A stretch of 64,000 nucleotides of DNA from Arcticibacter eurypsychrophilus (GTDB lineage Bacteria > Bacteroidota > Bacteroidia > Sphingobacteriales > Sphingobacteriaceae): assembly GCF_001730525.1 (NCBI RefSeq), contig NZ_MDFN01000012.1, positions 1-64,000 of the forward strand, written 5' to 3'. Below are positions 2,368 through 19,734 of this stretch, in pieces; position 1 is the stretch's first letter; each line of letters opens with the position of its first letter. The translations under genes and the position numbers were made by a program. Under the pieces are notes generated by a model. It did no database searches. It worked only from the letters and a program-made list of their open reading frames with translations, and was not told where the DNA came from.

Positions 2368-2383
2368 TAATTTTTTAACTTTG
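2354..2383 (+). promoter_or_regulatory. Promoter of trhO (Bacteroidota sigma-A type)
   Basis: TTG at 2354-2356 is followed after exactly 19 bases by TAACTTTG at 2376-2383, matching the TTG/TAnnTTTG consensus of Bacteroidota housekeeping promoters. The upstream element overlaps the last codons of the protease gene. The start codon of trhO is 41 bases downstream. Confidence 0.65.
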
Positions 2384-2423
2384 CATCGCATTTAACGCTG
2401 TTTGCAACAGTATCGATGAACAT

Positions 2424-3404: not shown

Positions 3405-3481
3405 TTCAGCTGCAAGCCTTGCTTTTAAATGCGGTATGGTCTAATCACTCTGGTAATATTTTAAAAATCTTATAAATAGAT

Positions 3482-3890: not shown

Positions 3891-6791
3891 ATGTTCAGAA
3901 GAGCTGGAATTTTACTTTTGTGGATTACCTGCTTTTTGCTGATCAACAAATTGGCCTTAGGAACGGATATAAAAGGTATGGGTGTTCCATATGTTCAGAA
4001 TTATACAAAAGCACAATACTTGTATGGCAACCAAAACTGGTCTGTTACTAAAGATCAGAACGGAATTATGTATTATGGTAATTCAGAGGGTTTATTATCA
4101 TTTGATGGGCGATACTGGCAGCAGTACAGGATGCCTAATCATTTGATTGTTCGCTCCGTTGCTGCAGATGGGAAAGATAGAATATATGCTGGAGCTTTTG
4201 GTGAATTTGGCTACTGGTCATACAATAAGAGTGGTAAACTGGTATATAATAGCCTTACTCCGCTTGTTCCTTCCAAATCTATCCCTAAAGATGAGATATG
4301 GAAAATTTATGTGGATGGGCAAAGAGTAATATTTCAATCATTTGCAAGTATATTTATATATGAAAAGGGTAAGATTAGCGTAGTAAAAGCAAGCAAACCT
4401 TTCCTCTTTTTATTTAAAGTAAAAAATCGTTTTTTTGTGGAAGTGATTGGTACTGGCCTTTTCGAATTAAAGGGAAAGATACTTCAACTTATTCCGAATA
4501 GTCATATTTTGGGGGGTACCGGGATTTTAACTATTCTGCCTTATCAGAAAAGTAAATTCATAATTGGTACTGCTAAAAATGGTTTATATATTTATGATGG
4601 AAAATCCATTATTCCATGGTCCAATCAAGCTAACCAGTTTTTAAAAACCTTTCAGCTAAATAATGGCCTGATTTTAATGGACCGCTATTTTGCTTTTGGT
4701 ACCATACTTAATGGAATTGTTATTCTGAATGAATCAGGACAGATTGTGCAGCAGATAAACAAATCAAGTGGACTGCAGAATAATACAGTACTAAGTTTAT
4801 ACTCAGATAATGAGCAAAATCTATGGGCAGGACTTGATAATGGGATTGATCGAATAGAACTGAATTCGCCTTTATATTTTTACTTCGATAAAAAGGGAGA
4901 CTTAGGTACTGTATATTCAAGTATAATCTATAAGAACAAAATATATTTAGGTACTAATCAAGGTCTTTTTTATAGTGATCTGAATGCCGATCAGAATGAT
5001 AAATTTCAATCGTTCAACTTCAAGTTCATTCCTAATTCACAAGGTCAAGTTTGGGATCTTTCCTTACTGGATGATCAACTGGTATGCGGTCATAATGAAG
5101 GAACTTTTGCTGTTGTTGGGGAGAGTTTAAAGCGACTTTCTTCAGTTAATGGGGGCTGGACAATAAAAAGGTTGAATTTATATCCTGATATGTTAATACA
5201 GGGAACATATACAGGACTAGTTATATATCGAAAGACTAGTGAAGGAAAATGGGTGTTTTCTCATCGTGTAAGTGGTTTCGGTGAACCATCTCGCTATGTT
5301 GAACAAGATGCTAAAGGGCAAATTTGGGTGGCACATGCTTATAAAGGGCTGTATCGGCTTCAATTAAGTAGTGACCTTAAAAGTGTAGTCTCGAGTCATT
5401 ATTATGGAGTTAAAAATGGCCTTCCTGGAAGTTACCATATTAATGTCTATAACCTGGATAATCGTATCGTATTTTCTTCCGATGCTGGATTTTACGTCTA
5501 TGACGATATCAGTAATAAGTTTTATAAGTATAGTCAACTCAATACTATTTTGGGATCATTTGCATCTTCGAATAAAATTATACCGGCTGCTGATAAGTCA
5601 TATTGGTTTATAAACCATGGCAGCGTCGCATTGACAAGTTTTAAAGAGCCAGGTAAGATTTCAGTTGATTCAAGCCGTTTTACTGTTTTGGATGGACGAA
5701 TGGTGCAGTACTATGAAAATATTAGTAAAATAAATAATTCCATTTACTTAATTAGTATGGATGATGGCTTTGCAATATATAATGGTAATACCATTCCGAT
5801 AGCTGATCCTTTAAAAATTCCCAAGGTGCTAATTAGAAAAGTTGAGAACATAACCTATGGCAACTTTTCAATAACAGAGAATGGAAGGGATGGTGAGGTG
5901 GAAATACCTAGTAATAGAAATAACATCAGGATTACTTATGCTCTGCCTTATTATCGGCAGGCCAAAGTAAGCTATCAATTCATGCTGGAGGGTTATACCA
6001 AGCGCTGGTCTGAATGGAGTCCTCAAGCATCAAAAGAATTTACCAATCTAAGTCAGGGAACTTATGTTTTTAAGGTAAGAGCACGCATTAACGAGAAGAT
6101 TATATCAGACACAGCTATTTTTGAATTTATAATTCTACCTCCATGGTATTTGAGCACTTGGGCGATCATATTTTATATATTACTACATATAGCAGCCTTT
6201 TTGTTTTTGAGGAGGTTATACTACATGAAACTTAGAAATCATCAGGAAGAGATTCATCGTAAGCTAAAGCTGGAAAAGGAAGCACTTTTAAAACAAGAGT
6301 TGATATCTAATGATCAAAAAATAGCTAAGCTAAAAAATGAGCAATTACAGGTCGATTTGGAGAGTAAAAGTCGGGAGCTTGCTAATTCGGCGATGAATAT
6401 CGTGTATAAAAATGAATTGCTTCAAAAGATAAGTGATGAGCTTATTCATTTGAAAGATAGTCATGGAAAAGTGTTAAAGGAGGACCAGTTAAAACGCATA
6501 CAAAAGGTAATTGATGAGGGCATAAATGACGAGCGGGACTGGAATGTTTTCGAGCATAGTTTTAATGAAGCGCATGAGAATTTTTTTAAGAAGCTTAAAA
6601 TTAATTCGCCTGATCTCGTTCCTAATGACCTGAAGCTTTGTGCTTACTTGCGAATGAACATGAGCAGTAAAGAGATTGCCTCTTTATTAAATATTTCATT
6701 AAGAGGCGTTGAAATAAGAAGATATAGATTGAGGAAAAAACTTAATCTTGATCATGATAAGAATCTGTCGGAATTTTTCATAGAGCTTTAA
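3891..6791 (+). CDS. Membrane-spanning propeller/Y_Y_Y/HTH regulator of the glycan locus (SusR-like)
   Basis: 966 residues. An N-terminal signal or anchor (about 1-24) is followed by two-component-regulator propeller repeats (about 30-660), a Y_Y_Y immunoglobulin-like domain (about 668-745, with ITYALPYYRQ and GYTKRWSEWS), one membrane helix (about 752-773), a charged coiled coil (about 778-860) and a C-terminal LuxR/GerE-type helix-turn-helix (about 900-960, LKLCAYLRMNMSSKEIAS then LNISLRGVEIRRYRLRKKL). There is no histidine kinase, ATPase or receiver domain, so the signal must pass from the periplasmic sensor straight to a membrane-tethered DNA-binding domain, as proposed for SusR-type regulators. 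Its place immediately upstream of susC, with 251 bp between, makes it the probable specific activator. The ligand is expected to be an oligosaccharide released from the target glycan; this is inferred. Confidence 0.9.
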   Translation: MFRRAGILLLWITCFLLINKLALGTDIKGMGVPYVQNYTKAQYLYGNQNWSVTKDQNGIMYYGNSEGLLSFDGRYWQQYRMPNHLIVRSVAADGKDRIYAGAFGEFGYWSYNKSGKLVYNSLTPLVPSKSIPKDEIWKIYVDGQRVIFQSFASIFIYEKGKISVVKASKPFLFLFKVKNRFFVEVIGTGLFELKGKILQLIPNSHILGGTGILTILPYQKSKFIIGTAKNGLYIYDGKSIIPWSNQANQFLKTFQLNNGLILMDRYFAFGTILNGIVILNESGQIVQQINKSSGLQNNTVLSLYSDNEQNLWAGLDNGIDRIELNSPLYFYFDKKGDLGTVYSSIIYKNKIYLGTNQGLFYSDLNADQNDKFQSFNFKFIPNSQGQVWDLSLLDDQLVCGHNEGTFAVVGESLKRLSSVNGGWTIKRLNLYPDMLIQGTYTGLVIYRKTSEGKWVFSHRVSGFGEPSRYVEQDAKGQIWVAHAYKGLYRLQLSSDLKSVVSSHYYGVKNGLPGSYHINVYNLDNRIVFSSDAGFYVYDDISNKFYKYSQLNTILGSFASSNKIIPAADKSYWFINHGSVALTSFKEPGKISVDSSRFTVLDGRMVQYYENISKINNSIYLISMDDGFAIYNGNTIPIADPLKIPKVLIRKVENITYGNFSITENGRDGEVEIPSNRNNIRITYALPYYRQAKVSYQFMLEGYTKRWSEWSPQASKEFTNLSQGTYVFKVRARINEKIISDTAIFEFIILPPWYLSTWAIIFYILLHIAAFLFLRRLYYMKLRNHQEEIHRKLKLEKEALLKQELISNDQKIAKLKNEQLQVDLESKSRELANSAMNIVYKNELLQKISDELIHLKDSHGKVLKEDQLKRIQKVIDEGINDERDWNVFEHSFNEAHENFFKKLKINSPDLVPNDLKLCAYLRMNMSSKEIASLLNISLRGVEIRRYRLRKKLNLDHDKNLSEFFIEL

Positions 6792-6792
6792 T

Positions 6793-7002
6793 ACTACATC
6801 AACACCTCTCATAGGGTATGTATTTCAAGTATATAATTGATGTATTTTATTTGTACACTATGTGTATAGAAAATTGATTAATTATGCTCTGATTTCATTT
6901 AAACGTATGATTTTAATTAAATTAAAACGAGATTTCCTCGCTTTGATGTAGTAAAGTGAAGGTTAATTAATTTTTTTGTTGCACACAATCATTTGATCTT
7001 TG
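6793..7002. promoter_or_regulatory. Candidate operator and promoter region of the glycan operon
   Basis: The octamer TTGATGTA occurs three times in the regulator-susC gap: at 6837-6844 and 6943-6950 on the plus strand, and at 6795-6802 on the minus strand. The outer two copies extend to a 10-bp inverted pair (ACTACATCAA at 6793-6802, TTGATGTAGT at 6943-6952). A short palindrome TACAC-TAT-GTGTA lies at 6854-6866. GATCTTTG at 6995-7002 resembles a -7 element with one mismatch, but its nearest upstream TTG (6976-6978) is 16 rather than 19 bp away, as expected for a promoter needing an activator. Binding by the upstream regulator is inferred. Confidence 0.4.
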
Positions 7003-7042
7003 TGTAGTTAACCAAATATCAATTAATCTAATTATAAACTTT

Positions 7043-10000
7043 ATGAGGAAATTATATACTAACCTGTTAGGTTGTATTCTCGTATTCTTTTTTATTTTAG
7101 GAAATGCTTTCGCTCAAGGAAGTATTACAGTAAAAGGAAAAGTAACTGATGCTATTAATGGAGAGGCATTAATCGGTGTAAGCATTAAATTAAAAGGGAG
7201 TACACAAGGTACATCAACAGATGTAAGCGGGGCCTTTACAATTAATATGCCCTCAAATGGAATTTTAATATTTACTTATATTGGCTTTGTATCCACAGAG
7301 ATTCCAATAAACAATCAAACAACTCTTAATGTAAAATTGAAAACTTCTTCAGCTGCACTTGATGAGGTGATTGTTGTAGGTTATGGTACACAAAGAAAAA
7401 GTGATATTACTGGTTCTGTTGCAAGGATTAAAGGTGCTGATATCGCCAGTCAGCCTGTACTTGCTGCAACACAGGCTATCCAGGGTAAGATAGCTGGAGT
7501 TCAGATTATTAGCTCAGGAGATCCTAATTCTTTGCCTACTGTCCGTATCAGGGGAACAGGAACAATGAAGGCAGGAGCAAACCCATTATATGTAGTTGAC
7601 GGAATTCTTACAGAAGATATCAGGAACATAAACAACGCGGATATCGTGTCAATGGATATTTTAAAGGATGCTTCAGCAACTGCAATATATGGAATGAGAG
7701 CTGCAAATGGAGTCCTTTTGATCACCACAAAAAAAGGAAAGACCGGTAAAATGGTAATTGCCTATGATGGACAAGCAGGTATAAAGGAAGCGGCTCATTT
7801 AGTCAACATGGCTGGTCCATCTCAATATGCTGGTTATCTAAACGAAGCTAGTATATATTACGGTACAGGAGATGAGCTTATTACTGCCGCTCAACTACAA
7901 TCGGGTGCGAATACGGATTGGTACGACGCTATATTGAAGAAGGGGATACAGCAGAATCATAATATATCTTTGTCCGGAGGAACAGATGATGTGACTTATT
8001 TCATAAGTGCTGGTTATTTATCTGATAAGGGAATTATTGAGACCAATGATTTTAACCGTTTTACATTACGTTCAAATAACGAATATAATGCTGCAAAGTG
8101 GCTCAAATTATCTTCTTTGATTTCTTTTAGCAGACTTAATAATAGGACTGTTGATCTAAATGCGTTTAATATAGCGTATAGAGCAGCACCTTACATTGCT
8201 TCTAAAATAGGTGAAAAGTATGGTAATACCTCTCTTTCTAATAATGTAGGTAATCCATTATTAAACCTGGAAAAGGCTGACAATTCCGTTTTAGGCAATA
8301 GGTTACAAGGGTCGTTTGCTGCAGATGTTAAACCGGTGTCGTGGTTAACTCTTCGTTCAAGCTTTGGTGTCGATCTAGATTTTCTTAAAAGTACAAACTA
8401 TGGATATCAATTTAACAATGTAGGCGCAAACAGCATATTTCTTACAGAAGGTGGAAATCAACTTCGTGATAAAAGTGATTTGACCGTTTCCCAAAATAAT
8501 GCAACAAAATGGGTTTGGGATAACACAGCGACATTTGCAAAGGTACTTGATAAGCACAGCTTCAATATCTTAGCTGGTATAACTTCAGAGCAATATAAGT
8601 TTAATGGATTAACTGGTAAACGTGTGAATGTTCCTGAAAATAAAGATCAATGGTATTTAGGTATTGGATCTACCAAAGGAGCTACTAACGATAATACAGG
8701 TGATAAATGGACCCGGAATTCATATATAAGCAGATTGAACTATGCTTATGATAACAAATATTTACTGACTGCTACATTCAGGGCAGATGGTACTTCAAGG
8801 TTTCCTACACAGAATCGTTGGGGCTACTTTCCATCTGTAGGGCTTGGTTGGAATATTGCGGAAGAAGATTTCATGAAGGGTCAAAAGACATTTACCACCC
8901 TTAAGATCCGAGGAAGTTGGGGTAGGGTTGGGAATGATCAGATTGCTACAAATGTGTATTTCCCAATTGCTGCGATCAACATCCCTTACTTCTACAACAA
9001 TGTCGAATATTCTGGAATTGCTTTTAATCAGTTACCAGATAAGAATGTAAAATGGGAAACTACCGAGGAGTATGATCTCGGACTTGATTTTGGTTTTTTT
9101 AATAATCGATTAAATGGTGAATTGGATTATTATTCCAAAACAACAAGAGACGCGCTTATTGATATTCGAATTCCAGCGATTCTGGGTGATATTGATGGAT
9201 TATATACCACTAATGCATCGAATTTCACGAATAAAGGTGCTGAGTTTGCTTTGAACTGGACAGATAAAGTTAATGACGATTGGAGTTACAATATCGGTGG
9301 AAACGTGGCTTATAATAAAAATGCAGTTACACGATTAAATGGAGGTCAGGCTTTAGTAGATGGAAACACCGGTGGAAATCAAGGAAATGTGACCAAATCT
9401 GATAACGGTCAGCCTATAGGAAGTTTTTTCATTTATGAGGCCGATGGAATTTTTCAAAACGTGGATGAAATTGCAGCTTCAGCCCAAAAGGATGCATTGC
9501 CTGGAGATTTAAGATATAAAGATTTGAGTGGTCCGGATGGAACACCTGATGGAATTATAAATGAATCAGATAGAACTTTTATGGGCTCCTACCAACCAAA
9601 ATATACTTTTGGTATAAATGGAAATGTAACCTTTAAAGAGTTTGATTTAGGAATCAGCACCTACGGTACTACAGGTGGAAAAATCTACAATGGAAAGAAG
9701 GCATCCCGAAATGATCAAAGAGATAATTTGGAAACAGATGTAGTTAATAACCGATGGACACCAGACAGACCAAGCAAAAGTGAGCCACGTGCTACTCTGA
9801 GTCAGCTTCCAGCATCTAGCTATTTTTTGGAAAAAGGAGATTTCTTCCGGATAAATAATTTAACACTGGGATTTACTATTCCTAAAGCGACCTTATCCAA
9901 GTTTAGTATAGAGCGTCTTCGAATTTATGTGGCTGCTCAAAATTTGGCTACCATAACAGGTTATAGTGGGTTTACTCCAGAAATAACTAGTGATAGAGCT

Positions 10001-10075
10001 ACTACTGCAGGAATTGAATCAAGTATTTATCCTACTACCAGGACCTTCACTTTTGGGGTCAATATAGGTTTATAA
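7043..10075 (+). CDS. SusC-family TonB-dependent outer-membrane transporter
   Basis: 1010 residues with a signal peptide ending in NAFAQ at about residue 25. A CarboxypepD_reg-like domain (about 28-108, GKVTDAINGEALIGVSI) is followed by the segment DEVIVVGYGTQRKSDITGSV that marks the SusC/RagA family, a plug domain (about 115-225, with GVQI, IRIRGTGT and YVVDG) and a 22-stranded beta-barrel to the C-terminus (ending TFTFGVNIGL). It imports oligosaccharides across the outer membrane with TonB/ExbBD energy and pairs with the SusD protein encoded 17 bp downstream. It is the first gene of a seven-gene operon; the substrate is inferred from the glycosidases that follow. Confidence 0.96.
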   Translation: MRKLYTNLLGCILVFFFILGNAFAQGSITVKGKVTDAINGEALIGVSIKLKGSTQGTSTDVSGAFTINMPSNGILIFTYIGFVSTEIPINNQTTLNVKLKTSSAALDEVIVVGYGTQRKSDITGSVARIKGADIASQPVLAATQAIQGKIAGVQIISSGDPNSLPTVRIRGTGTMKAGANPLYVVDGILTEDIRNINNADIVSMDILKDASATAIYGMRAANGVLLITTKKGKTGKMVIAYDGQAGIKEAAHLVNMAGPSQYAGYLNEASIYYGTGDELITAAQLQSGANTDWYDAILKKGIQQNHNISLSGGTDDVTYFISAGYLSDKGIIETNDFNRFTLRSNNEYNAAKWLKLSSLISFSRLNNRTVDLNAFNIAYRAAPYIASKIGEKYGNTSLSNNVGNPLLNLEKADNSVLGNRLQGSFAADVKPVSWLTLRSSFGVDLDFLKSTNYGYQFNNVGANSIFLTEGGNQLRDKSDLTVSQNNATKWVWDNTATFAKVLDKHSFNILAGITSEQYKFNGLTGKRVNVPENKDQWYLGIGSTKGATNDNTGDKWTRNSYISRLNYAYDNKYLLTATFRADGTSRFPTQNRWGYFPSVGLGWNIAEEDFMKGQKTFTTLKIRGSWGRVGNDQIATNVYFPIAAINIPYFYNNVEYSGIAFNQLPDKNVKWETTEEYDLGLDFGFFNNRLNGELDYYSKTTRDALIDIRIPAILGDIDGLYTTNASNFTNKGAEFALNWTDKVNDDWSYNIGGNVAYNKNAVTRLNGGQALVDGNTGGNQGNVTKSDNGQPIGSFFIYEADGIFQNVDEIAASAQKDALPGDLRYKDLSGPDGTPDGIINESDRTFMGSYQPKYTFGINGNVTFKEFDLGISTYGTTGGKIYNGKKASRNDQRDNLETDVVNNRWTPDRPSKSEPRATLSQLPASSYFLEKGDFFRINNLTLGFTIPKATLSKFSIERLRIYVAAQNLATITGYSGFTPEITSDRATTAGIESSIYPTTRTFTFGVNIGL

Positions 10076-10092
10076 TTTTAAGCGGAACAAAA

Positions 10093-11637
10093 ATGAAAAC
10101 GAATAAATATATCATAACTTGTATAACTGCAGGATTAATTGTTTTATCTGGATGCAGTAAGGACTTCCTTGAGGTTAGTCCCCAGGGACAATTAACGGAA
10201 GATCAGGTATTGAAAGATCCAAATGCCGCTAATCAATTAGTTGGAGGAGTCTACAGCACTTTATATTTCGGCGGATTTGATAATACAACGGTCGGATTTC
10301 TCTTTGAATGTTTAAATGACATGGCTTCTGATGATACAGATAAAGGAAGTTCTCCATCTGATTTTAGTGCAGGTGGTGAGATTGATAATTTTACAGTAAC
10401 GGCCAACAATTTTGTATTGAATAACATCTGGCAAGGGCATTATAGTGCAATTAACAGGGCAAATAAGGCTATTGATGTTTTAACTCAAAGTACATTTGAC
10501 GAGGGTGTAAAAAATACTTTGATAGGCGAAGTGCGTTTTTTAAGAGGCATCTATTATTTTAACATGGTAAGATGTTTCGGTGGTGTACCAAAGGTAATTC
10601 GTACTCCTGATCCTTCGGAAGGAAACAGTGATGAATTTCAAACCAGGTCCACAAAAGAGGAAATTTACCAAGTAATCTTAGATGACTTGCAGTTTGCAGC
10701 AGATAATCTTCCTGAAAAGGGAAGCACAGAAGTAGGTCGCGCTACTAAAGGAGCTGCACAAAGTTATTTGGCTAAAGTTTATATGTACCAGAAAAATTGG
10801 GCAAAAGTATTGGAAAATACTACAGCTGTTATTAATTCAGGTAGATATAATCTGGTAAATGATTATAGTTTGATCTTTAGGGAAAATGCAGTTGGAAATG
10901 ATGGAGGAAATAATAATGTGGAATCTATCTTTGAAGTTCAAACAGGTATAAATTTAGGTGAAAATGCAGTTAGTCTTTTATATAGCAATGGTCAGGGTCC
11001 TCGTTCAAAAGGAGGATGGAATGACTTAGGTTTTGGTATCAATACCCCAAGTTCCGACTTGGCTAATGCATACGAAGCTAATGATAAGAGAAGAGCGGCA
11101 AGTATTATTTTTATAAACCCTACGGTTATACATAAAGACGGCGGTAACCCTTTAAACGTCGGAACTGTGCTATGGGATGGATTCCGCATACCAACGCAGG
11201 ATTCTGTTGAAAATGAACGCTATAACTATAAAGCTTTTCATAGCTCCTTAAAAGAATCGCCTCAGGTTAGTAATAATAAAGACAGTAAACCTAAAAACAT
11301 TAGGCTGATGCGCTACGCGGATGTTCTGTTGATGTATGCTGAAGCACAAGCTAATTTAGGAAATAGTGGGGAAGCAGAAGCCAAGTTGAAATTAGTAAGG
11401 AATAGAGCAGGACTAGTGACAGTTGCGGGCACTGTAGCGAATATCTGGAATGAAAGACGAGTTGAATTAGCAATGGAACAGGATCGCTTTTTTGATTTGG
11501 TTAGACAAGGACGTGCAGGAACAGTTCTTAGAGCAAAAGGTAAAGCCTTTGTTGATGGAAAAAACGAGTTGTTTCCTATTCCACAGGCTCAACGTGATCT
11601 AAGCGCTGGACGACTTACTCAAAATCCAGGATATTAA
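10093..11637 (+). CDS. SusD/RagB-family glycan-binding lipoprotein
   Basis: 514 residues. A lipoprotein signal ends at the lipobox LSGC (Cys21), followed by SKDFLEVSPQGQLTEDQ, a typical SusD start. The N-terminal helical TPR-like scaffold includes NIWQGHYSAINRANKAID and RFLRGIYYFNMVRCFGGVP, and the C-terminal RagB/SusD domain includes MRYADVLLMYAEAQANLG, WNERRVELAMEQDRFFDLVR and the closing FPIPQAQRDL...NPGY. It forms the lid of the SusC barrel and captures oligosaccharides at the cell surface. It directly follows susC and directly precedes a LamG lipoprotein, the usual order of such operons. Confidence 0.96.
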   Translation: MKTNKYIITCITAGLIVLSGCSKDFLEVSPQGQLTEDQVLKDPNAANQLVGGVYSTLYFGGFDNTTVGFLFECLNDMASDDTDKGSSPSDFSAGGEIDNFTVTANNFVLNNIWQGHYSAINRANKAIDVLTQSTFDEGVKNTLIGEVRFLRGIYYFNMVRCFGGVPKVIRTPDPSEGNSDEFQTRSTKEEIYQVILDDLQFAADNLPEKGSTEVGRATKGAAQSYLAKVYMYQKNWAKVLENTTAVINSGRYNLVNDYSLIFRENAVGNDGGNNNVESIFEVQTGINLGENAVSLLYSNGQGPRSKGGWNDLGFGINTPSSDLANAYEANDKRRAASIIFINPTVIHKDGGNPLNVGTVLWDGFRIPTQDSVENERYNYKAFHSSLKESPQVSNNKDSKPKNIRLMRYADVLLMYAEAQANLGNSGEAEAKLKLVRNRAGLVTVAGTVANIWNERRVELAMEQDRFFDLVRQGRAGTVLRAKGKAFVDGKNELFPIPQAQRDLSAGRLTQNPGY

Positions 11638-11662
11638 TTACTAACCATTATATCGATATTAT

Positions 11663-12568
11663 ATGAAACCTAATTATAAATCAATATCAGTCATCGTAAT
11701 GGCGATATTAACAAGTATACTATTTACACAATGCACTCAACCTGAGAAAGATGATGTTTTTACTCCAGGTGAGGGTCCTTCAATAGGAGAGTGGAGTACT
11801 TCTGATGAAGTATCGCCGGACAATTTAGTAGCCTATTGGAATTTTGATGGTAATATAGCCGATTCAAAAGGTAATGTTACCGGCGGTAAATTAAACGGCG
11901 TAGGAACATTTGTTGATGGTAGAAAAGGCCAGGCTTACAAGGGAAGTGCAAATGCTTTCATTTCATACGACAATCCTGGTACAATTGCAGGATTGACAAG
12001 TTTTACTGTATCCTTTTGGATGTATACTGCGAAACATGATGGTGGAGCCCAAGGGATTTTTGCTCTTGCTAAAGCAGATGGTTCGTTTTGGGCCAATTTC
12101 TTTGTTATTGTTGAAGGGAACACCTCCACCACTAATAAGATGCAAATAAAGCTTCATTTTGAAAAAAATGCTACACCGGCAATCCCTAATACTGAAAATT
12201 GGGTTGACCCTGCTGAGACTCTAAGGCCTGACAATATGTATGGAGCATGGCGACAAGTAACGTATACCTATGATGCACAAACTTCAAAAGTAGCTATGTA
12301 TGCCAATGGTCAGGCTATAGCTTTACCAGCAGCTGATGCAAATCGGAAAAGTGGTGTTGGAGATGCTGGTCTAGGCCCACTGGCCTTTAAAGATGCTACA
12401 AAATTTGTTATTGGTGCATTTCAGAATAGTCTTGGCGCTCCCTTTAATGGATTAGAGCCATGGATGCTCAATTACACCGGAATGCTTGATGAAATGCGAA
12501 TCTATAAAACAGCTTTGAGCTCTCAGGAAGTATCTGCTTTGTACCAATTAGAACGACAGGGTAGGTGA
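11663..12568 (+). CDS. LamG-domain surface lipoprotein, probable glycan-binding protein
   Basis: 301 residues. The lipoprotein signal ends in FTQC (Cys24). After a Ser/Pro/Glu-rich linker a single concanavalin-like LamG domain covers about residues 55-298 (LVAYWNFDGNIADSKG, FTVSFWMYT, WRQVTYTYDAQTSKVAMYANG, and the closing MLDEMRIYKTALSSQEVSAL). It holds the position that SusE/SusF-like surface glycan-binding proteins take in other loci, between SusD and the hydrolases. No catalytic residues are evident, so binding is the likelier role. Four base pairs separate the stop and the upstream-most possible start of the next gene, and translational coupling is likely. Confidence 0.85.
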   Translation: MKPNYKSISVIVMAILTSILFTQCTQPEKDDVFTPGEGPSIGEWSTSDEVSPDNLVAYWNFDGNIADSKGNVTGGKLNGVGTFVDGRKGQAYKGSANAFISYDNPGTIAGLTSFTVSFWMYTAKHDGGAQGIFALAKADGSFWANFFVIVEGNTSTTNKMQIKLHFEKNATPAIPNTENWVDPAETLRPDNMYGAWRQVTYTYDAQTSKVAMYANGQAIALPAADANRKSGVGDAGLGPLAFKDATKFVIGAFQNSLGAPFNGLEPWMLNYTGMLDEMRIYKTALSSQEVSALYQLERQGR

Positions 12569-12576
12569 TCATATAT

Positions 12577-14256
12577 ATGTCTAAAATAGCTATGCGATAT
12601 TCCATCATCTCTGCTTGCTGTATGTTGTTATTCTTGTTTGGTTGCAGTAAAAACAGTAGCGAAGATGCTTTACCTGTAGTTGATCCTTTTACTTTTGTTT
12701 CTGCTACCGTTAACGGAATATCGGATAGCTCTTTATTTTTCAATGAGGTAGGTACTAGCCCTTCGATTAAACTTTTTTTTTCTGATCCAATAGATATCGC
12801 TTCAGTTCAAGAGAACCTGTTATTTAATCAAAGTTCAGGTGAGGCGATTAATTATAGCGCGACTTATGAAAATGATAACACTGCTATAGTTCTTAAGCCT
12901 GCTTCGAGTCTGGGTTCATTTAGTAACTATAAAGTTGTGATATCCGGAAGTTTAAAGTCGGCAACGAAGATTAGCTTAAATAAAAGTATTACCGTTAGTT
13001 TAACTACAGGACTAGACTCAGCCGATAAATTCCAAAGAATACCGGAAGAGGACTTGTTTAACCTGGTACAACGTCAAACGTTTAAGTATTTCTGGGACTT
13101 TGCACATCCTGTTAGTGGGTTGGCAAGGGAAAGGATTACATCAGGAGAGACAGTGACTTTGGGTGGTTCTGGTTTTGGTGTTATGGCAATTGTGACAGGT
13201 ATTCACCGGGGCTTCATTACAAGAGAGGAAGGTTTAGCCAGGATGCAAAAAATCGTCGCTTTTCTTAAAAATAAGGCGCAAAGGTTTCATGGAGCATATC
13301 CGCATTGGTTAAATGGTACAACTGGCCAGGTTCAGCCTTTTAGTGCAAAAGATAATGGTGCTGATTTGGTAGAAACCTCATTTTTAATGCAGGGATTATT
13401 AACCGCTCGTCAGTATTTTTCTAATGCAAATTCCAATGAAACTGTCCTTCGTGATGATATTAACGCCATATGGAATACAGTGGAATGGAGCTGGTTCAGG
13501 AAGAATAATGAGAATGTGTTATACTGGCATTGGAGTCCTGATTTTCAGTGGGAAATGAATATGCCTATTAAAGGATGGAATGAGGGTTTAATTACTTATG
13601 TCCTTGCTGCATCTTCAACTACTTATCCTATACCTAAAAGTGTTTACGATAATGGCTGGGCAAACAATGGATCTATTCGAAATGGTAATCTTTATTATGG
13701 AGTGCAGTTGCCTTTAGGTCCGGCTAATGGAGGTCCATTGTTCTTTTCGCATTATTCTTTTCTTGGAATAAATCCTAATGGTTTAAAGGATGCTTACGCT
13801 GATTATGAGATTCAAACTAAGGCGCATAGTTTAATAAATTATAAATATTGTGTTGCTAATCCTAAAAAGTTTTATGGTTATAGTGGCGATTGTTGGGGTT
13901 TAACCGCTAGTGATGATATTAATGGGTATCTGGCTCATGAACCCAATAATGATAATGGCGTTATTTCTCCAACAGCGGCTTTATCTTCATTTCCTTATAC
14001 TCCTGTTGAATCCATGAAAGCATTGAATTTTTTCTATTATAAACTGGGAGATAAGCTTTGGAAAGATTATGGTTTTATAGATGCATTCTCGTTATATGAG
14101 CCATGGTTCGCGAGTTCATATCTGGCAATTGATCAGGGACCCATTATTATCATGATTGAAAATCATAGGAGTAAACTCTTATGGAACTTATTTATGAGTT
14201 GTCCTGAAGTGAAAACCGGAATGAAAACACTGGGCTTTAGTAGTCCTAATTTATAA
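12577..14256 (+). CDS. GH144-type beta-1,2-glucanase lipoprotein with N-terminal Ig-like domain
   Basis: 560 residues from ATG 12577; a GTG at 12565 would overlap the previous stop, and an ATG at 12592 is also possible. The lipobox is LFGC in the sequence LLFLFGCSKN. Residues about 45-145 form an immunoglobulin-like module (SPSIKLFFSDPIDIAS). The rest is a Glycoamylase-family (PF10091) alpha/alpha-barrel: LVQRQTFKYFWDFAHPVSG, LARERITSGE, GSGFGVMAIVTGIHRGFI, RFHGAYPHWLNGTTG, GADLVETSFLMQGLL and the closing YLAIDQGPIIIMIENHRS. GH144 includes endo-beta-1,2-glucanases from Chitinophaga and Parabacteroides. As a lipoprotein after SusCD it would cut polymer at the surface. The exact linkage is inferred from family and context; PF10091 also contains other activities. 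Confidence 0.85.
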   Translation: MSKIAMRYSIISACCMLLFLFGCSKNSSEDALPVVDPFTFVSATVNGISDSSLFFNEVGTSPSIKLFFSDPIDIASVQENLLFNQSSGEAINYSATYENDNTAIVLKPASSLGSFSNYKVVISGSLKSATKISLNKSITVSLTTGLDSADKFQRIPEEDLFNLVQRQTFKYFWDFAHPVSGLARERITSGETVTLGGSGFGVMAIVTGIHRGFITREEGLARMQKIVAFLKNKAQRFHGAYPHWLNGTTGQVQPFSAKDNGADLVETSFLMQGLLTARQYFSNANSNETVLRDDINAIWNTVEWSWFRKNNENVLYWHWSPDFQWEMNMPIKGWNEGLITYVLAASSTTYPIPKSVYDNGWANNGSIRNGNLYYGVQLPLGPANGGPLFFSHYSFLGINPNGLKDAYADYEIQTKAHSLINYKYCVANPKKFYGYSGDCWGLTASDDINGYLAHEPNNDNGVISPTAALSSFPYTPVESMKALNFFYYKLGDKLWKDYGFIDAFSLYEPWFASSYLAIDQGPIIIMIENHRSKLLWNLFMSCPEVKTGMKTLGFSSPNL

Positions 14257-14262
14257 TATAAC

Positions 14263-15627
14263 ATGAATAAATTACTGTCTCTATGTATGCTTTTTATCTT
14301 AATCCTCTTTTTAAATAGTTGTGTAGGACATAGAGAAAATTCTACTTCTGCTCCATCTTTAAAAGATACGCTAAGTGATGATTCCTTACTTACCCTAGTT
14401 CAAAAAAGGACCTTTAATTATTTCTGGGAAGGTGCTGAGCCAGTATCAGGTTTAGCCAGAGAGCGCATTCACATGGATGGCGACTATCCTGAACATGACC
14501 AGGATGTAGTCACTATTGGTGGGGGAGGGTTCGGTATAATGGCAATTTTAGTGGGCATAGAACGTAGATTCATTACCAGACAGCAAGGGGCTGAAAGGCT
14601 CAGGAAAATTGTAAACTTTCTTTCCAAAGCAGATCGTTTTCATGGAGCCTGGCCGCATTGGCTATATGGTCCTACTGGTAAAGTAAAACCCTTTGGTATT
14701 AAAGATGATGGTGGCGATTTGGTAGAAACTGCTTTTATGGCTCAGGGTCTTATTTGTGTGAGTCAGTATTTTAAAGATGGGAATGTCCAAGAGCAGCAAC
14801 TTTCAAAAGATACAGAAAACCTTTGGAAAGAAATAGATTGGAGCTGGTACCGTAATGGAAACCAGAACGTACTCTACTGGCATTGGAGTCCTAAATATCA
14901 GTGGGCAATGAATTTTCCTGTATCAGGCTATAATGAATGCCTGATTATGTATGTCTTGGCAGCCTCATCTCCTACATATGGGGTACCTGCGGCAGTATAT
15001 CACGAGGGTTGGGCTAAAAAGGGTGCAATCAAATCAGATGGGGAACAATTAGGATACAAAGTGTTTTTGAATTATAATGGAGTCGAGGGACATGTGGGGC
15101 CACTTTTTTGGGCGCATTACTCATATCTGGGCTTAAATCCAAAAGGCTTAAAGGATCGTTATGCCGATTATTGGCAGCTTAATAAAAACCAGACACTTAT
15201 TCACAGAAAGCATGCGCTTGAAAATCCAAAAGGCTTTAAAGGATATGGGGAGAATACCTGGGGACTGTCGGCCAGTTACTCTGTAAAAGGCTATAGCGCA
15301 CATACGCCTGATAATGATTTGGGAGTGATCTCTCCAACAGCGGCTTTATCCTCTTATCCCTACACACCAACTTATTCTATGCAAGTCATTCGTCACTTAT
15401 ATCAGGACCTGGGTGATCAGGTGTGGGGTAAATATGGATTTTATGATGCTTTTAGTGAAACGGATAACTGGTATCCAAAACGTTATCTGGCAATTGATCA
15501 GGGTCCCGAAATTGTGATGATTGAAAACGGAAGGTCTGGATTGTTATGGAAGTTGTTTATGAGTAATACAGCGGTACAAAGTGGCTTGAAGAAATTAGGC
15601 TTTGAAAGCCCCTATTTAAAACTATAA
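14263..15627 (+). CDS. Second GH144-type beta-1,2-glucanase lipoprotein
   Basis: 454 residues, lipobox LNSC (Cys20). It is a paralogue of the preceding gene, with the same landmarks: LVQKRTFNYFWEGAEPVSG, GGGGFGIMAILVGIERRFI, RFHGAWPHWLYGPTG, GGDLVETAFMAQGL, YWHWSPKYQW and YLAIDQGPEIVMIENGRSG. It lacks the N-terminal Ig-like module and has about ten extra residues (roughly residues 70-80, HMDGDYPEHDQD) between LARER and the glycine-rich loop, next to the expected substrate cleft. The pair may divide the work between long polymer and shorter oligosaccharides, as described for the two GH144 enzymes of Parabacteroides distasonis. The gene starts 6 bp after its neighbour's stop. Confidence 0.85.
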   Translation: MNKLLSLCMLFILILFLNSCVGHRENSTSAPSLKDTLSDDSLLTLVQKRTFNYFWEGAEPVSGLARERIHMDGDYPEHDQDVVTIGGGGFGIMAILVGIERRFITRQQGAERLRKIVNFLSKADRFHGAWPHWLYGPTGKVKPFGIKDDGGDLVETAFMAQGLICVSQYFKDGNVQEQQLSKDTENLWKEIDWSWYRNGNQNVLYWHWSPKYQWAMNFPVSGYNECLIMYVLAASSPTYGVPAAVYHEGWAKKGAIKSDGEQLGYKVFLNYNGVEGHVGPLFWAHYSYLGLNPKGLKDRYADYWQLNKNQTLIHRKHALENPKGFKGYGENTWGLSASYSVKGYSAHTPDNDLGVISPTAALSSYPYTPTYSMQVIRHLYQDLGDQVWGKYGFYDAFSETDNWYPKRYLAIDQGPEIVMIENGRSGLLWKLFMSNTAVQSGLKKLGFESPYLKL

Positions 15628-15628
15628 A

Positions 15629-17425
15629 ATGATCAGGAACGAATTACAAAAATATTACTCAACAAGAGAAAAATCTAAGAAAATTGTACTGATATGCTTT
15701 ATCCTGGGTATTGCTTTATCATTAAATACCGCTGCGCAAACTACTCAAATGACCACCTATTGTAATCCCCTCAATCTAGATTACACCTATATGGTTTACG
15801 ATTCCAACCGTGATATTTCTTATCGCTCAGGGGCCGATCCTGCTGTTGTTACCTTCAAGGGTGAATATTATATGTTCGTTACCCGGTCTATGGGCTATTG
15901 GCACTCTACAGATCTAACTAATTGGACGTTTATTACTCCTGAAAAATGGTATTTCCAGGGATCAAATGCTCCGGCAGCTCATAATTATAAGGACTCTGTT
16001 TTGTACGTAGCTGGCGATCCTTCCGGTTCTATGAGTATCCTGTACACTGATAATCCTAAAAAAGGAGATTGGAAGGCTACACCCGCAATTCTCAATGATC
16101 TGCAAGATCCTGATTTATTTATTGATGATGACGGACAGGCGTATATGTTTTGGGGATCTTCCAATACGTTTCCGCTCAGAGGGAAAAAACTAGACAAATC
16201 GAATCGTTTTCGTGCATCTGATGAAACGGTTGAACTGTTTAAACTCGATGGTGATAAGCATGGATGGGAAAGATTTGGTGAAAATCATTCCGATACCGTA
16301 CTTAAAGGCTATATGGAAGGCGCTTGGCTAACTAAATATAATAATAAATATTATATGCAGTACGCTGCACCAGGCACCGAATTTAATGTATATGGCGATG
16401 GAGTCTATATGAGCGATTCCCCACTGGGGCCATATAAGTATGCACCTAATAATCCGGTCTTTTATAAACCAGGTGGTTTTGCTAATGGATCCGGACATGG
16501 AAGTACGGTAATTGGTCCTGACAATAAGTTCTGGCACTTTGCTTCGATGGCCGTTTCAATAAATGTAAACTGGGAAAGGCGTCTTTGTTTATTTCCAGCC
16601 TATTTTGATCAGGATGGCCTCATGTATTCAAACACTTCCTTTGGCGATTATCCTCACTACACACCATCGATAGCTGGAAAAATGGGACAGTTTAAAGGCT
16701 GGATGCTGCTTTCCTATAACAAGCCCATAAAAGCTTCTTCCTCTTTGGATAAATTTAAACCAGAGAATATGGTGGATGAAAGTATTAAAACTTTTTGGGT
16801 CGCAACGAAAAATGATGATCAGCAATGGATTGAGATTGATCTCTTAAAACCAGCAAAAGTATGTGCAATCCAGGTAAATTACAATGATTATAAATCAAAT
16901 CTTTATGGAAGAATTCCTGGTCTTTACCAGCGTTACTTAATTGAAGGATCAAACGATAAAAAGAACTGGACCGTACTGGTTGACCGTCAGGAGAACTATA
17001 GAGATGTACCAAACGATTATGTAGAATTGGGAGTGCCACAAAAGGTCAGATACATTCGGTATAAAAATATTCACGTTCCTACACCTAATCTTTCCATCTC
17101 AGGATTACGTGTTTTTGGAATAGGTGAAGGTAAAAAGCCTGCTCCTGTAAAAGGGTTTAAAGTAAAGCAATATAAAGACCTTCGGGACGCTGATATCTCC
17201 TGGAACAAGCAATCTGGCGTTCAGGGATATAATGTTTTATGGGGAATTGCTCCCGATAAGCTGTATAACTCCTGGATGGTGTATGAAGCTAATCTATTGA
17301 ACTTGAAAAGTTTGTCCGTTGATCAAACTTATTATTTCTCCATAGAGGCTTTTAATGAAAATGGAATTTCAGCAAGAACTAAGCCCCAGAAGTTAATTAA
17401 ATCTAACTATTCTGGTACTAAATAA
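15629..17425 (+). CDS. GH43-type glycosidase with discoidin-like and FN3-like modules
   Basis: 598 residues. A signal peptide ends near TAAQ (about residue 36), with no lipobox, so the protein is periplasmic or secreted. The N-terminal half is a five-bladed propeller of GH43 type with the three expected acids: Asp70 (SGADPAVV), Asp160/Asp162 (LQDPDLFIDDDG) and Glu230 (MEGAWLTKY). Residues about 365-500 resemble an F5/8 type C (discoidin) module (PENMVDESIKTFWVATK, WIEIDLLKPAKV, IRYKNIHVPTPNLSISG), and about 505-590 a fibronectin III fold. GH43 enzymes usually act on arabinose, xylose or galactose linkages, none of which belong in plain beta-1,2-glucan. It may remove a substituent or have another specificity; this is open. 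The start overlaps no other gene, 1 bp after the previous stop. Confidence 0.82.
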   Translation: MIRNELQKYYSTREKSKKIVLICFILGIALSLNTAAQTTQMTTYCNPLNLDYTYMVYDSNRDISYRSGADPAVVTFKGEYYMFVTRSMGYWHSTDLTNWTFITPEKWYFQGSNAPAAHNYKDSVLYVAGDPSGSMSILYTDNPKKGDWKATPAILNDLQDPDLFIDDDGQAYMFWGSSNTFPLRGKKLDKSNRFRASDETVELFKLDGDKHGWERFGENHSDTVLKGYMEGAWLTKYNNKYYMQYAAPGTEFNVYGDGVYMSDSPLGPYKYAPNNPVFYKPGGFANGSGHGSTVIGPDNKFWHFASMAVSINVNWERRLCLFPAYFDQDGLMYSNTSFGDYPHYTPSIAGKMGQFKGWMLLSYNKPIKASSSLDKFKPENMVDESIKTFWVATKNDDQQWIEIDLLKPAKVCAIQVNYNDYKSNLYGRIPGLYQRYLIEGSNDKKNWTVLVDRQENYRDVPNDYVELGVPQKVRYIRYKNIHVPTPNLSISGLRVFGIGEGKKPAPVKGFKVKQYKDLRDADISWNKQSGVQGYNVLWGIAPDKLYNSWMVYEANLLNLKSLSVDQTYYFSIEAFNENGISARTKPQKLIKSNYSGTK

Positions 17426-17451
17426 ATCTAATTAACAGTAAATTATAGCGT

Positions 17452-19734
17452 ATGAAAGTTTTCAAAAAGTGTTTGTTTTTATTCATTACAGTTGTTACAG
17501 GGGCATCTGCACAAACAAAACAGGATGTTAAGATGGATAAGTTTATATCTACGCTAATGCAAAAAATGACTTTGGATGAAAAGCTAGGTCAGTTGAACCT
17601 TCCAGGTGCGGGGGACATTACTACCGGGCAAGCATCCAGTTCCGATATTGCACAGAAGATAGAAGCGGGCAAAATTGGAGGTTTATTTAATATTAAAACA
17701 GTAGAAAAGATTAAGGATGTTCAAAAGATAGCGGTTGAAAAATCCCGGCTAAAAATTCCTTTAATCTTTGGGATGGATGTTATTCATGGGTATCAAACTG
17801 TTTTTCCTATACCATTAGGCTTGTCCTGCACCTGGGATATGGCTCTAATTGAAAGGAGCGCAAGGATCGCAGCTATCGAAGCAAGCGCTGATGGAATTAA
17901 CTGGACATTTTCTCCTATGGTAGATATTTCACGTGATGCCCGTTGGGGCAGAGCATCAGAAGGATCGGGTGAAGACCCATACCTCGGATCTCAGATCGCA
18001 AAAGCGATGGTAAAAGGGTATCAGGGTGATGATCTGAGTCGGAACAATACCATATTAGCTTGTGTGAAGCACTTTGCGCTATACGGAGCAATAGAAGCAG
18101 GTCGGGATTATAATACTACTGACATGAGCCGGCTTAGAATGTATAACGAATATTTTGCACCCTATAAAGCAGCAGTAGACGCTGGGGCAGGAAGCGTAAT
18201 GACTTCCTTTAATGAGGTTGATGGTATTCCTGCAAGTGCAAATAAGTGGTTGATGACCGACGTATTGCGTAAGCAATGGGGATTTAATGGAATGGTGGTG
18301 ACTGATTATACAGCCATTAATGAAATGATTGAGCATGGGTTAGGTGATTTAAAAACAGTATCAGCACTGGCACTTAAAGCAGGTGTAGACATGGATATGG
18401 TAGGGGAAGGGTTTTTAACTACTTTAAAACAGTTATTAAGCGAAGGAAAGATTTCGCAACAGGAAATCGACATGGCTTGTCAACGCATATTGGAGGCGAA
18501 ATACAAATTAGGATTGTTTGCTGATCCCTATCGGTATTGTAATGTTAAACGGAGTAAAACTGAAATTTTTACACCTGCAAATAGAAAAGAAGCCAGGTCA
18601 ACTGCTGCTCAAAGCTTTGTTTTGCTAAAAAATGATAGCCAGATATTGCCACTAAAAAAAGGTGGTAAAATTGCTCTTATCGGTCCACTTGCTGATGCAG
18701 CCGAAAATATGACTGGTACCTGGAGTGTTGCAGCTGATTTCAAAAAGTCAGTGTCCTTGCTGAGTGGTCTAAAAAGCATTGGAGGAAAAAATACAAAAAT
18801 TAGCTACGCAAAAGGAGCAAACTTAACGGCTGACAGTGCCCTGGAAACAAGATCCACTATGTTTGGTAAATCATTAGGAAGAGATCCTCGCTCCGCAGAT
18901 GTACTTCTAAAAGAAGCGTTAGCGATTGCTCAACAAGCCGATGTTATTGTAGCTGCTCTTGGCGAATCAGCTGAAATGAGTGGTGAGAGCTCAAGTCGTT
19001 CAGACATTACGATCCCACAAGTTCAAAAAGATCTTTTAGCTGCTTTATTGAAGACAGGCAAGCCCGTTGTACTGGTATTATTTACTGGGCGGCCTTTAGC
19101 ATTAAAATGGGAAAGTGAAAATGCCCCATCGATATTAAATGTTTGGTTTGGCGGATCCGAAGCTGGAGATGCAATTGCTGATGTTCTTTTTGGAGATGTA
19201 AACCCTTCAGGAAAGCTTACGATGACATTCCCTCAAAATGTAGGTCAGGTGCCTATCTATTATAACCACAAAAACACAGGGAGACCGCTCGCTGAAGGAA
19301 AATGGTTTCAGAAATTCAGATCCAATTATCTGGATGTTTCCAACGATCCCTTATACCCTTTTGGTTATGGTTTGAGTTATACTACATTTGATTATAGCGC
19401 TATAAAACTAAGTGATACCCTATTGCGAAAAGGACAGTCTATAAGAGCCGAAGTTACTGTAAGAAATACAGGGTCAAGGGATGGGCAGGAAGTTGTACAG
19501 CTATATACTAGAGATCTGGTAGGTTCAATTACGCGACCCGTTAAAGAATTGAAAGGATTTCAGAAAATAAGCTTAAAAGCAGGTGAATCTAAAGTAGTTA
19601 CTTTTACTGTTACTGATGAAGATCTCAAGTTTTATAACAGTGATTTAAATTACGTAGCTGAGCCTGGAGCCTTCAAATTGTTTATTGGTACCAATAGTAA
19701 GGATGTCAAAGAAGTAGGATTTACTTTACAATAA
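17452..19734 (+). CDS. bglX: Periplasmic GH3 beta-glucosidase (BglX-like)
   Basis: 760 residues with a signal peptide ending ASAQ at about residue 21 and no lipobox. The layout is that of BglX: TIM-barrel (DEKLGQLNLPG, FGMDVIHGYQTVFPIPLG, SRDARWGRASEGSGEDPYL), an alpha/beta sandwich (FVLLKNDSQILPLKKGGK) and a C-terminal FnIII-like domain (EVTVRNTGSRDGQEVVQLY). The nucleophile is Asp285 in MVVTDYTAI; Glu512 in AEMSGESSSRSD is the likely acid/base. Such enzymes remove glucose from non-reducing ends and often accept sophorose (beta-1,2) as well as other beta-links. As the last gene of the operon it would complete digestion after SusCD import. Confidence 0.92.
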   Translation: MKVFKKCLFLFITVVTGASAQTKQDVKMDKFISTLMQKMTLDEKLGQLNLPGAGDITTGQASSSDIAQKIEAGKIGGLFNIKTVEKIKDVQKIAVEKSRLKIPLIFGMDVIHGYQTVFPIPLGLSCTWDMALIERSARIAAIEASADGINWTFSPMVDISRDARWGRASEGSGEDPYLGSQIAKAMVKGYQGDDLSRNNTILACVKHFALYGAIEAGRDYNTTDMSRLRMYNEYFAPYKAAVDAGAGSVMTSFNEVDGIPASANKWLMTDVLRKQWGFNGMVVTDYTAINEMIEHGLGDLKTVSALALKAGVDMDMVGEGFLTTLKQLLSEGKISQQEIDMACQRILEAKYKLGLFADPYRYCNVKRSKTEIFTPANRKEARSTAAQSFVLLKNDSQILPLKKGGKIALIGPLADAAENMTGTWSVAADFKKSVSLLSGLKSIGGKNTKISYAKGANLTADSALETRSTMFGKSLGRDPRSADVLLKEALAIAQQADVIVAALGESAEMSGESSSRSDITIPQVQKDLLAALLKTGKPVVLVLFTGRPLALKWESENAPSILNVWFGGSEAGDAIADVLFGDVNPSGKLTMTFPQNVGQVPIYYNHKNTGRPLAEGKWFQKFRSNYLDVSNDPLYPFGYGLSYTTFDYSAIKLSDTLLRKGQSIRAEVTVRNTGSRDGQEVVQLYTRDLVGSITRPVKELKGFQKISLKAGESKVVTFTVTDEDLKFYNSDLNYVAEPGAFKLFIGTNSKDVKEVGFTLQ

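Follow-up and report, generated by a model that had tools for sequence, protein, structure and literature searches.

A GH144-containing polysaccharide utilization locus of Arcticibacter eurypsychrophilus with a predicted beta-1,2-glucan substrate

Genes of the locus

We analyzed a stretch of 64,000 nucleotides from Arcticibacter eurypsychrophilus (Bacteroidota, Sphingobacteriaceae; contig NZ_MDFN01000012.1, positions 1 to 64,000), referred to here as the window. It contains, at 3891-19734, a polysaccharide utilization locus (PUL): adjacent SusC and SusD genes together with glycan-active enzymes and a regulator. A sequence-only reading of the same DNA had proposed that this locus serves the use of beta-1,2-glucan. 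Based on the comparisons below, we consider a beta-1,2-glucan PUL highly probable. Eight open reading frames (ORFs), all on the + strand, lie in the order first described, and the tight packing reported for the last seven agrees with the measured intergenic distances: 251 bp between the regulator and SusC genes, followed by 17, 25, -4, 6, 1 and 26 bp. The overlap of 4 bp depends on a GTG start at 12565; with an in-frame ATG at 12577 there would be a gap of 8 bp.

Families were assigned with Pfam and NCBIfam profiles at E<=0.001. The first gene (3891..6791) encodes a sensor/regulator with a Reg_prop propeller, a Y_Y_Y domain and a LuxR/sigma-70-type helix-turn-helix (HTH), both HTH matches falling under the curated cut-offs. 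No histidine kinase domain was listed for this protein by Pfam or NCBIfam at that threshold, in agreement with its earlier description as kinase-less. The 251 bp that follow (6792..7042) are the probable promoter region of a SusC operon. By eye, 6950-7042 contains a sequence resembling TTTG-N-TAnnTTTG, which we take to be the Bacteroidota promoter motif, with at least one mismatch. Next come the SusC-type TonB-dependent transporter (7043..10075; TIGR04056, 888.7 bits) and the SusD-type surface lipoprotein (10093..11637; PF07980 and PF14322; lipobox LSGC by eye). The product of the gene at 11663..12568, a probable surface glycan-binding protein, had been called a LamG lipoprotein. The LamG domain is present (PF13385, Laminin_G_3, 45.1 bits); its FTQC lipobox is poor, and we regard the protein as a probable lipoprotein.

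The remaining four genes encode enzymes. GH144b (12565..14256, with the ATG at 12577 the likely start) and GH144a (14263..15627) both contain PF10091 and have lipoboxes recognized by eye in the translations (LFGC and LNSC, respectively); GH144b also has a Big_5 domain at its N-terminus. The GH43 protein (15629..17425) has a five-bladed propeller, an F5/8 type C domain and a C-terminal beta domain. The last gene (17452..19734) encodes a predicted GH3 beta-glucosidase. By eye, the signal peptides of GH43 and GH3 are of the ordinary type. GH43 is therefore expected in the periplasm, acting on oligosaccharides after their import, and GH3 is probably periplasmic as well.

Evidence for a beta-1,2-glucan backbone

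We found that both PF10091 proteins fit GH144 by everything that could be tested. In a search against solved sequences, GH144a matched CpSGL, the endo-beta-1,2-glucanase of Chitinophaga pinensis (5gzh/5gzk), over its full length (691.9 bits). GH144b matched the uncharacterized 4gl3 (561.1 bits), CpSGL (513.3 bits) and BDI_3064 (424.3 bits), each over the catalytic part only (residues 158-562 for CpSGL and 158-555 for BDI_3064). At E<=0.001, each protein had seven solved matches, among which CpSGL ranked first or close to first and none bore the name of another family, in a library that may lack GH162, GH189 and GH192-194. Residues D135, D139, E142 and E211 of CpSGL are kept in the two window proteins, as D148/D152/E155/E225 and D263/D267/E270/E340, and are identical in all 198 aligned GH144 rows. 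According to the available part of PMC12102758, mutating these four residues strongly reduces CpSGL activity; E211 is the general acid and E142 the most plausible base.

A FastTree tree of the 198 rows, a quick method that left 55 of 184 inner branches open, gave a similar picture. Among four references, GH144a was nearest CpSGL (path length 0.86) and GH144b nearest 4gl3 (1.44, compared with 1.81 to BDI_3064), away from BDI_3064. Neither protein clustered outside GH144, the result that the sequence-only reading had named as evidence against itself, and its assignment to this family is supported.

We take BDI_3064 (5z06) to be the exo-type GH144 enzyme of reviews. GH144b was considered as an enzyme of this type and the idea was rejected: 4gl3 is closer, the N-terminal domain of BDI_3064 is unmatched, and the tree path to it is longer. 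In a Pontibacter locus (L125:12254-14464), a third GH144 protein, beside GH43 and an SGNH hydrolase, does match BDI_3064 along its full length (924.6 bits, both domains included); similar labels were found in L130 and L158, and the window has no such third protein. Distant GH144-like proteins (~680-780 aa, ~22-38% identical, mostly piecewise matches) lie outside the locus in G024, G022, G032, G086, G020 and other genomes.

The GH3 protein belongs to the JMB19063/BT_3567/Lin1840 clade. Its best solved matches were JMB19063 (1246.5 bits), 5tf0 (1148.7 bits), 5xxl, which we take to be BT_3567 (1143.4 bits), and Lin1840 (616.9 bits). It also exceeds the cut-off of the NCBIfam BglX equivalog (970.8 versus 666 bits), a broader label. 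Two residues of subsite +1 are kept in the alignment: Arg611 corresponds to Arg587 of JMB19063, and Phe622 to its Phe598. Lin1840 prefers sophorose, and its Arg572, equivalent to JMB19063 Arg587, matters for its selectivity towards sophorose and laminaribiose (PMC4757417, in part). A similar preference is reported for a B. thetaiotaomicron GH3 in the available parts of PMC11842490 and PMC12369401. Clade membership and the Arg/Phe pair thus uphold the earlier description of a sophorose-type GH3.

Because of the GH144 assignment and the sophorose-type GH3, the backbone of the substrate is very likely a beta-1,2-glucan. We suggest the following scheme. Chain cleavage at the cell surface would fall to the two GH144 lipoproteins, with GH144a as an endo enzyme and GH144b probably also in endo mode. 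LamG and SusD would bind the chain, and SusC would import the oligosaccharides. In the periplasm, GH3 would liberate glucose from sophoro-oligosaccharides, and GH43 would presumably remove a side group or cut a linkage beyond the reach of GH3. The operon would presumably be switched on by the one-protein propeller/HTH regulator upon sensing an oligosaccharide.

Several observations weigh against this assignment. GH3 enzymes of this clade, Lin1840 included, also cleave laminaribiose, and the available part of PMC4757417 holds no sophorose test of JMB19063, the best GH3 match. A GH144-containing Bacteroides locus holds a beta-1,2-galactosidase that ignores beta-1,2-glucooligosaccharides (PMC11739564, in part), and so a GH144 label does not settle every sugar. 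Finally, GH43 does not fit a plain beta-1,2-glucan, linear or cyclic, in which it has no obvious task, and its subfamily is missing from 35 of the 88 genomes with GH144 in the phylum sample described below.

Turnover of the bacterium's own glucan was also considered. No match to OpgG/OpgD (MdoG) was found in its genome, in a search that detected the E. coli control. Cyclic-glucan synthases carry, as we understand it, a PF10091 domain. No PF10091 match beyond the pair in the locus was found in the 4.69-Mb genome (E<=0.001), and there is therefore no PF10091-bearing cyclic-glucan synthase. We rejected self-turnover on these grounds, which are silent on the source of the glucan; that it derives from other bacteria, as the sequence-only reading proposed, is unproven.

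The gene set recurs in relatives, and for this reason we regard it as more than a chance assembly. GH144a had matches in 70 of 150 relatives, own genome included (weak only in G042 and G075). We fetched 68 GH144-bearing regions (<=20 kb) from 67 relatives and 12 regions around GH43 copies, and labeled their ORFs by best BLAST match to the window proteins. Among the 68 GH144 regions, SusC and SusD were each present in 62, GH3 in 52, GH43 in 40 and LamG in 33; 18 regions carried both GH144 labels.

The locus had been called self-contained, a fair description: the family search found no glycan-utilization family in the three genes upstream (subtilase, UPF0176 rhodanese and a DUF486 gene) and the six downstream (a gene with no Pfam match, YebC, a protein with CHU_C and a lamin-tail domain below cut-off, semialdehyde dehydrogenase, S13 peptidase and a second subtilase).

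The GH43 protein and its possible task

We found that the GH43 protein has the features of its family, namely a Pfam GH43 match, the propeller fold (in a model) and an Asp/Asp/Glu triad. By sequence it is a member of a distinct subfamily with no close solved relative. Its nearest solved relative scored 42.5 bits with the single sequence and 66.8 bits with a 33-row profile. Among the matches listed, copies of the subfamily in relatives are 39-94% identical over nearly the full length (E of 1e-126 or better); other GH43 matches are partial, mostly 25-37% identical with a maximum of 40% over short stretches (E>=5e-21). Residues D70, D160 and E230, which we take by motif position to be the GH43 triad, are invariant in two alignments (33/33 and 37/37 rows). 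An AlphaFold2 model from the 37 rows (predicted local distance difference test score 85.6) has the GH43 propeller and superimposes on 4qqs with a Z score of 28.9 and a root-mean-square deviation of 2.5 A over 279 aligned residues. The top Foldseek match was BT_3662 (5msx; TM scores 0.39/0.49).

The GH43 subfamily and GH144 tend to occur together. In a sample of 296 genomes from the phylum, with GH144 called at E<=1e-60, the subfamily was present in 59 genomes and GH144 in 88. Both were found in 53, GH43 alone in 6, GH144 alone in 35 and neither in 202 (Fisher odds ratio 51, kinship ignored). The two lay within 20 kb in 30 of the 53 genomes (within 5 kb in 24) and farther apart or on other contigs in 23; one of these 23 misses the 20-kb limit by 521 bp, and draft contigs may conceal further links. 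Of the eight genomes, own included, with a copy at least 55% identical to that of the window in the best segment, none was among the unlinked ones. Similarly, among the matches listed, 24 relatives have a copy at least 64% identical, and in 23 it lies in a fetched GH144 region. In the exception (G060; L107:4849-10814), a GH2 gene (by eye), a sulfatase gene and a window-type GH43 gene stand in a row, with no GH144 in the 20-kb region.

A strict tie between GH43 and GH144 is false, given the 6/59 genomes with GH43 and no GH144 and the 23/53 in which they are unlinked. At 1e-8, we found no SusC/SusD beside GH43 in 19 of the 23 unlinked regions or in GH144-less G329, some of these regions ending at contig ends. 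None was found either in G040, G054 and G111 (L104, L101 and L109), which brings the unlinked regions inspected to 22 (G233 excluded). A related genus has five genomes (G054, G073, G088, G040 and G064; L101-L105) in which a lone GH43 gene lies among housekeeping-like genes (by eye) and the GH144 locus has no GH43; in G019 and G082, of the same genus, GH43 is inside the GH144 locus.

We also examined a named collection, in which 78 loci remained of the best 80 of 579; the query alignment had been built largely on GH144 loci. The subfamily ranges here over Sphingobacteriaceae, Pontibacter, Bacteroides fragilis, Parabacteroides and marine Flavobacteriaceae. Copies 61-72% identical were found in metagenome bins labeled Williamsia, Margulisbacteria and Sedimentisphaerales (L131, L138 and L161), reflecting either horizontal transfer or mis-binned Bacteroidota contigs. 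By BLAST labels, with Pfam on ten examples, the neighbors in the 78 loci were GH3 (63), GH144 (60), sulfatase-like (31), alpha/beta-hydrolase (24), GH2 (15) and SGNH hydrolase (8). The GH144 linkage of 60/78 (48/58 where each flank spans 9 kb or more) is overstated by the sampling, and the phylum sample is the fairer measure.

A plain beta-1,2-glucan needs only an endo-acting GH144 and a GH3. The GH43 gene, which the sequence-only reading left unexplained, therefore points to a side group on the glucan or to an unrecorded glucan activity of GH43. We tentatively prefer the side group. As a tentative but plausible refinement, the substrate would be a decorated or mixed polysaccharide on a beta-1,2-glucan backbone. 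GH43 would strip a sugar side group from it, and the main food would be something other than plain cyclic or periplasmic glucans. In relatives, esterases and a sulfatase would strip further groups. The invariant triad, the presence of GH144 in 53/59 GH43 genomes with 30/53 pairs within 20 kb, and the absence of unlinked genomes among those with the closest copies are consistent with this refinement. So are the alpha/beta-hydrolase, SGNH hydrolase, sulfatase (CxPSR by eye) and GH2 genes that relatives add to their loci, and a sulfated marine version of the glucan has been proposed (PMC6499787, in part).

Other observations argue against a decorated glucan. GH43 is unlinked in 23/53 genomes, and SusC/SusD were absent beside it in the 22 regions inspected. 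The window locus contains neither an esterase nor a sulfatase; its genome had no match to one of the relatives' esterases, in a search run with no positive control and so weak, and only two partial sulfatase relatives (35-36% identical). In addition, side groups of pentose or galactofuranose are not known to us from any beta-1,2-glucan. We set aside an apparent link between sulfatase and GH43: a sulfatase was present in 28/92 loci with GH43 and 0/28 without, in a biased comparison that mixes GH144-found and GH43-found regions.

Several of the relatives' accessory genes could be characterized further. The sulfatase of L125 best matched 9s8y (304.5 bits), and the GH2 protein of L179 best matched 8dhl (618.5 bits), ahead of beta-galactosidases and beta-glucuronidases. 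In marine Flavobacteriaceae (L172, L174, L178-L180, L193 and L195) we observed, whole or in part, a cassette of GH144, esterase, GH3, GH2, a 295-aa gene, sulfatase and GH43. The 295-aa gene of L179 encodes a BD-FAE-type esterase (Pfam), and L178, L193 and L195 have no GH144 within the fetched 10 kb. In L127, a gene with a sulfatase-modifying-factor domain (7008-8156) lies directly between the sulfatase gene and two GH43 genes.

Alternatively, in an otherwise plain pathway, the target of GH43 might be beta-1,2-gluco-oligosaccharides themselves, or else the beta-1,6 branches or the alpha-1,6 link that some bacterial glucans contain. Its linkage to GH144 and GH3, a signal peptide resembling that of GH3 (by eye) and the distance to any solved relative would all allow this. 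However, GH3 already covers beta-1,2 bonds, and among the structural matches listed, most of those with a name are beta-xylosidases, alpha-L-arabinofuranosidases or arabinanases. The Foldseek matches of the model further include an exo-beta-1,3-galactanase, a levanase and sialidases; a shared fold does not establish activity. We consider a glucan-active GH43 unlikely. That the GH144 proteins act on some other beta-1,2-linked glycan, as the Bacteroides galactosidase locus might suggest, is very improbable: the eight genes include no GH35, the GH3 falls in a glucosidase clade with a sophorose-type +1 site, and those GH144 enzymes for which the available sources describe assays act on beta-1,2-glucan or its oligosaccharides.

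We found no description of GH43 and GH144 in one locus in the main text available from PMC6499787, PMC6550366, PMC7922503, PMC8072126, PMC9122927, PMC10405439 and PMC12834350. A literature search for GH43 with beta-1,2-glucan also found no paper, with a phrase form that may match poorly.

Exchange of the sensor-SusC-SusD half, and known systems

We found that the transporter genes differ between close relatives more than the enzyme genes do. A comparison of six genomes in this genus, that of the window among them, gave identities of 80-96% for GH3, 75-94% for GH43 and 71-89% for GH144a. SusC in the same genomes falls into four lineages (the window with G002 and G003; G005; G001; G004) that are 36-42% identical, and SusD likewise (34-45%).

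DNA comparison with the locus of Arcticibacter svalbardensis (L041, genome G005, linked to the named record through identical GH3/GH43) gave a mosaic. In pieces of at least 80 bp, identity was 90.9% at 2048-3405 and 68.5% at 3966-7398 (the regulator). The rest of SusC-SusD-LamG-GH144b matched only in 146 bp at 67.8%, plus a 64% cross-match of GH144b to GH144a of L041. Downstream, identity was 90.9% from 14378 and 92.1% to 24500. SusC/SusD are 42% identical in protein sequence, and LamG and GH144b are absent from the G005 locus. The mosaic therefore indicates a block of ~10.5 kb of different origin, from the regulator to ~115 bp inside GH144a. By this comparison the sensor/SusC/SusD half has been replaced between the two species, and either version may be ancestral.

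Similar exchange was seen more widely. After removal of duplicates (the same genome fetched twice; identical GH3 or GH43), 79 GH144 loci remained that each have a single SusC and a single GH3. Their SusC proteins form 15 groups at 50% identity, and of the 75 pairs in which GH3 identity is 80% or more, 36 have SusC below 50%. The SusC group changed at least 32 times when mapped on a FastTree GH3 tree; perfect following would give 14 changes, and 100 shuffles gave 46-58. Exchange thus appears frequent and not unrestrained, and this result weighs against free exchange. The divergence of SusC might also come from pressure by SusC-using phages or toxins, or from chance.

The locus is ordinary in kind; the GH43 companion and the sensor-transporter exchange are the parts worth following. 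Beta-1,2-glucans are bacterial factors in symbiosis, virulence and osmoregulation (PMC12102758, in part). Their consumers are little known, and this locus offers a testable one. The recurrent GH43 companion points to a glycan structure or an activity missing from the literature searched, and relatives with similar enzymes and unrelated SusC/SusD form a natural set with which to ask what the transporter pair selects. More speculatively, and rather doubtfully, a widespread, undescribed beta-1,2-glucan bearing side groups may exist on land and in the sea, with a GH43 subfamily dedicated to the side group and block swaps of sensor-SusC-SusD retuning the locus to forms of the glucan while GH144-GH43-GH3 are kept.

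The exchange has a parallel in the fructan PUL of Bacteroides thetaiotaomicron, in which transfer of nothing more than a divergent SusC/SusD pair gave the ability to use inulin (PMC5967196, in part). There, as here, the pair diverges between close relatives within one kind of locus. That work concerned two strains, fructan and a tested function; ours concerns several species, a beta-1,2-glucan locus and sequence evidence.

Comparison with individual enzymes places GH144a with CpSGL, by its full-length match and catalytic residues. GH144b represents a second GH144 group, nearer 4gl3 and with the extra N-terminal Big_5 domain. It shares the family, and a match to the catalytic part, with BDI_3064; like 4gl3, and unlike BDI_3064, it has no insertion of ~17 residues. 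The window GH3 resembles the beta-glucosidases BT_3567, JMB19063 and Lin1840 in clade and in its +1 Arg and aromatic residue.

As a whole, the locus is a further example of a kind already described. According to the available text of PMC6499787, GH144 loci are abundant among Bacteroidota, target beta-1,2-glucan and, in marine species, include a sulfatase as well; the window locus has no sulfatase. GH43, present in the window, is unmentioned in the text found of that paper, of PMC6550366 (fosmid PULs) and of PMC8072126 (a Maribacter cluster). The systems in these three sources combine SusC/SusD with GH144 as the window does, with GH3 as well in the last two, and have been assigned to beta-1,2-glucan or to glucanase activity.

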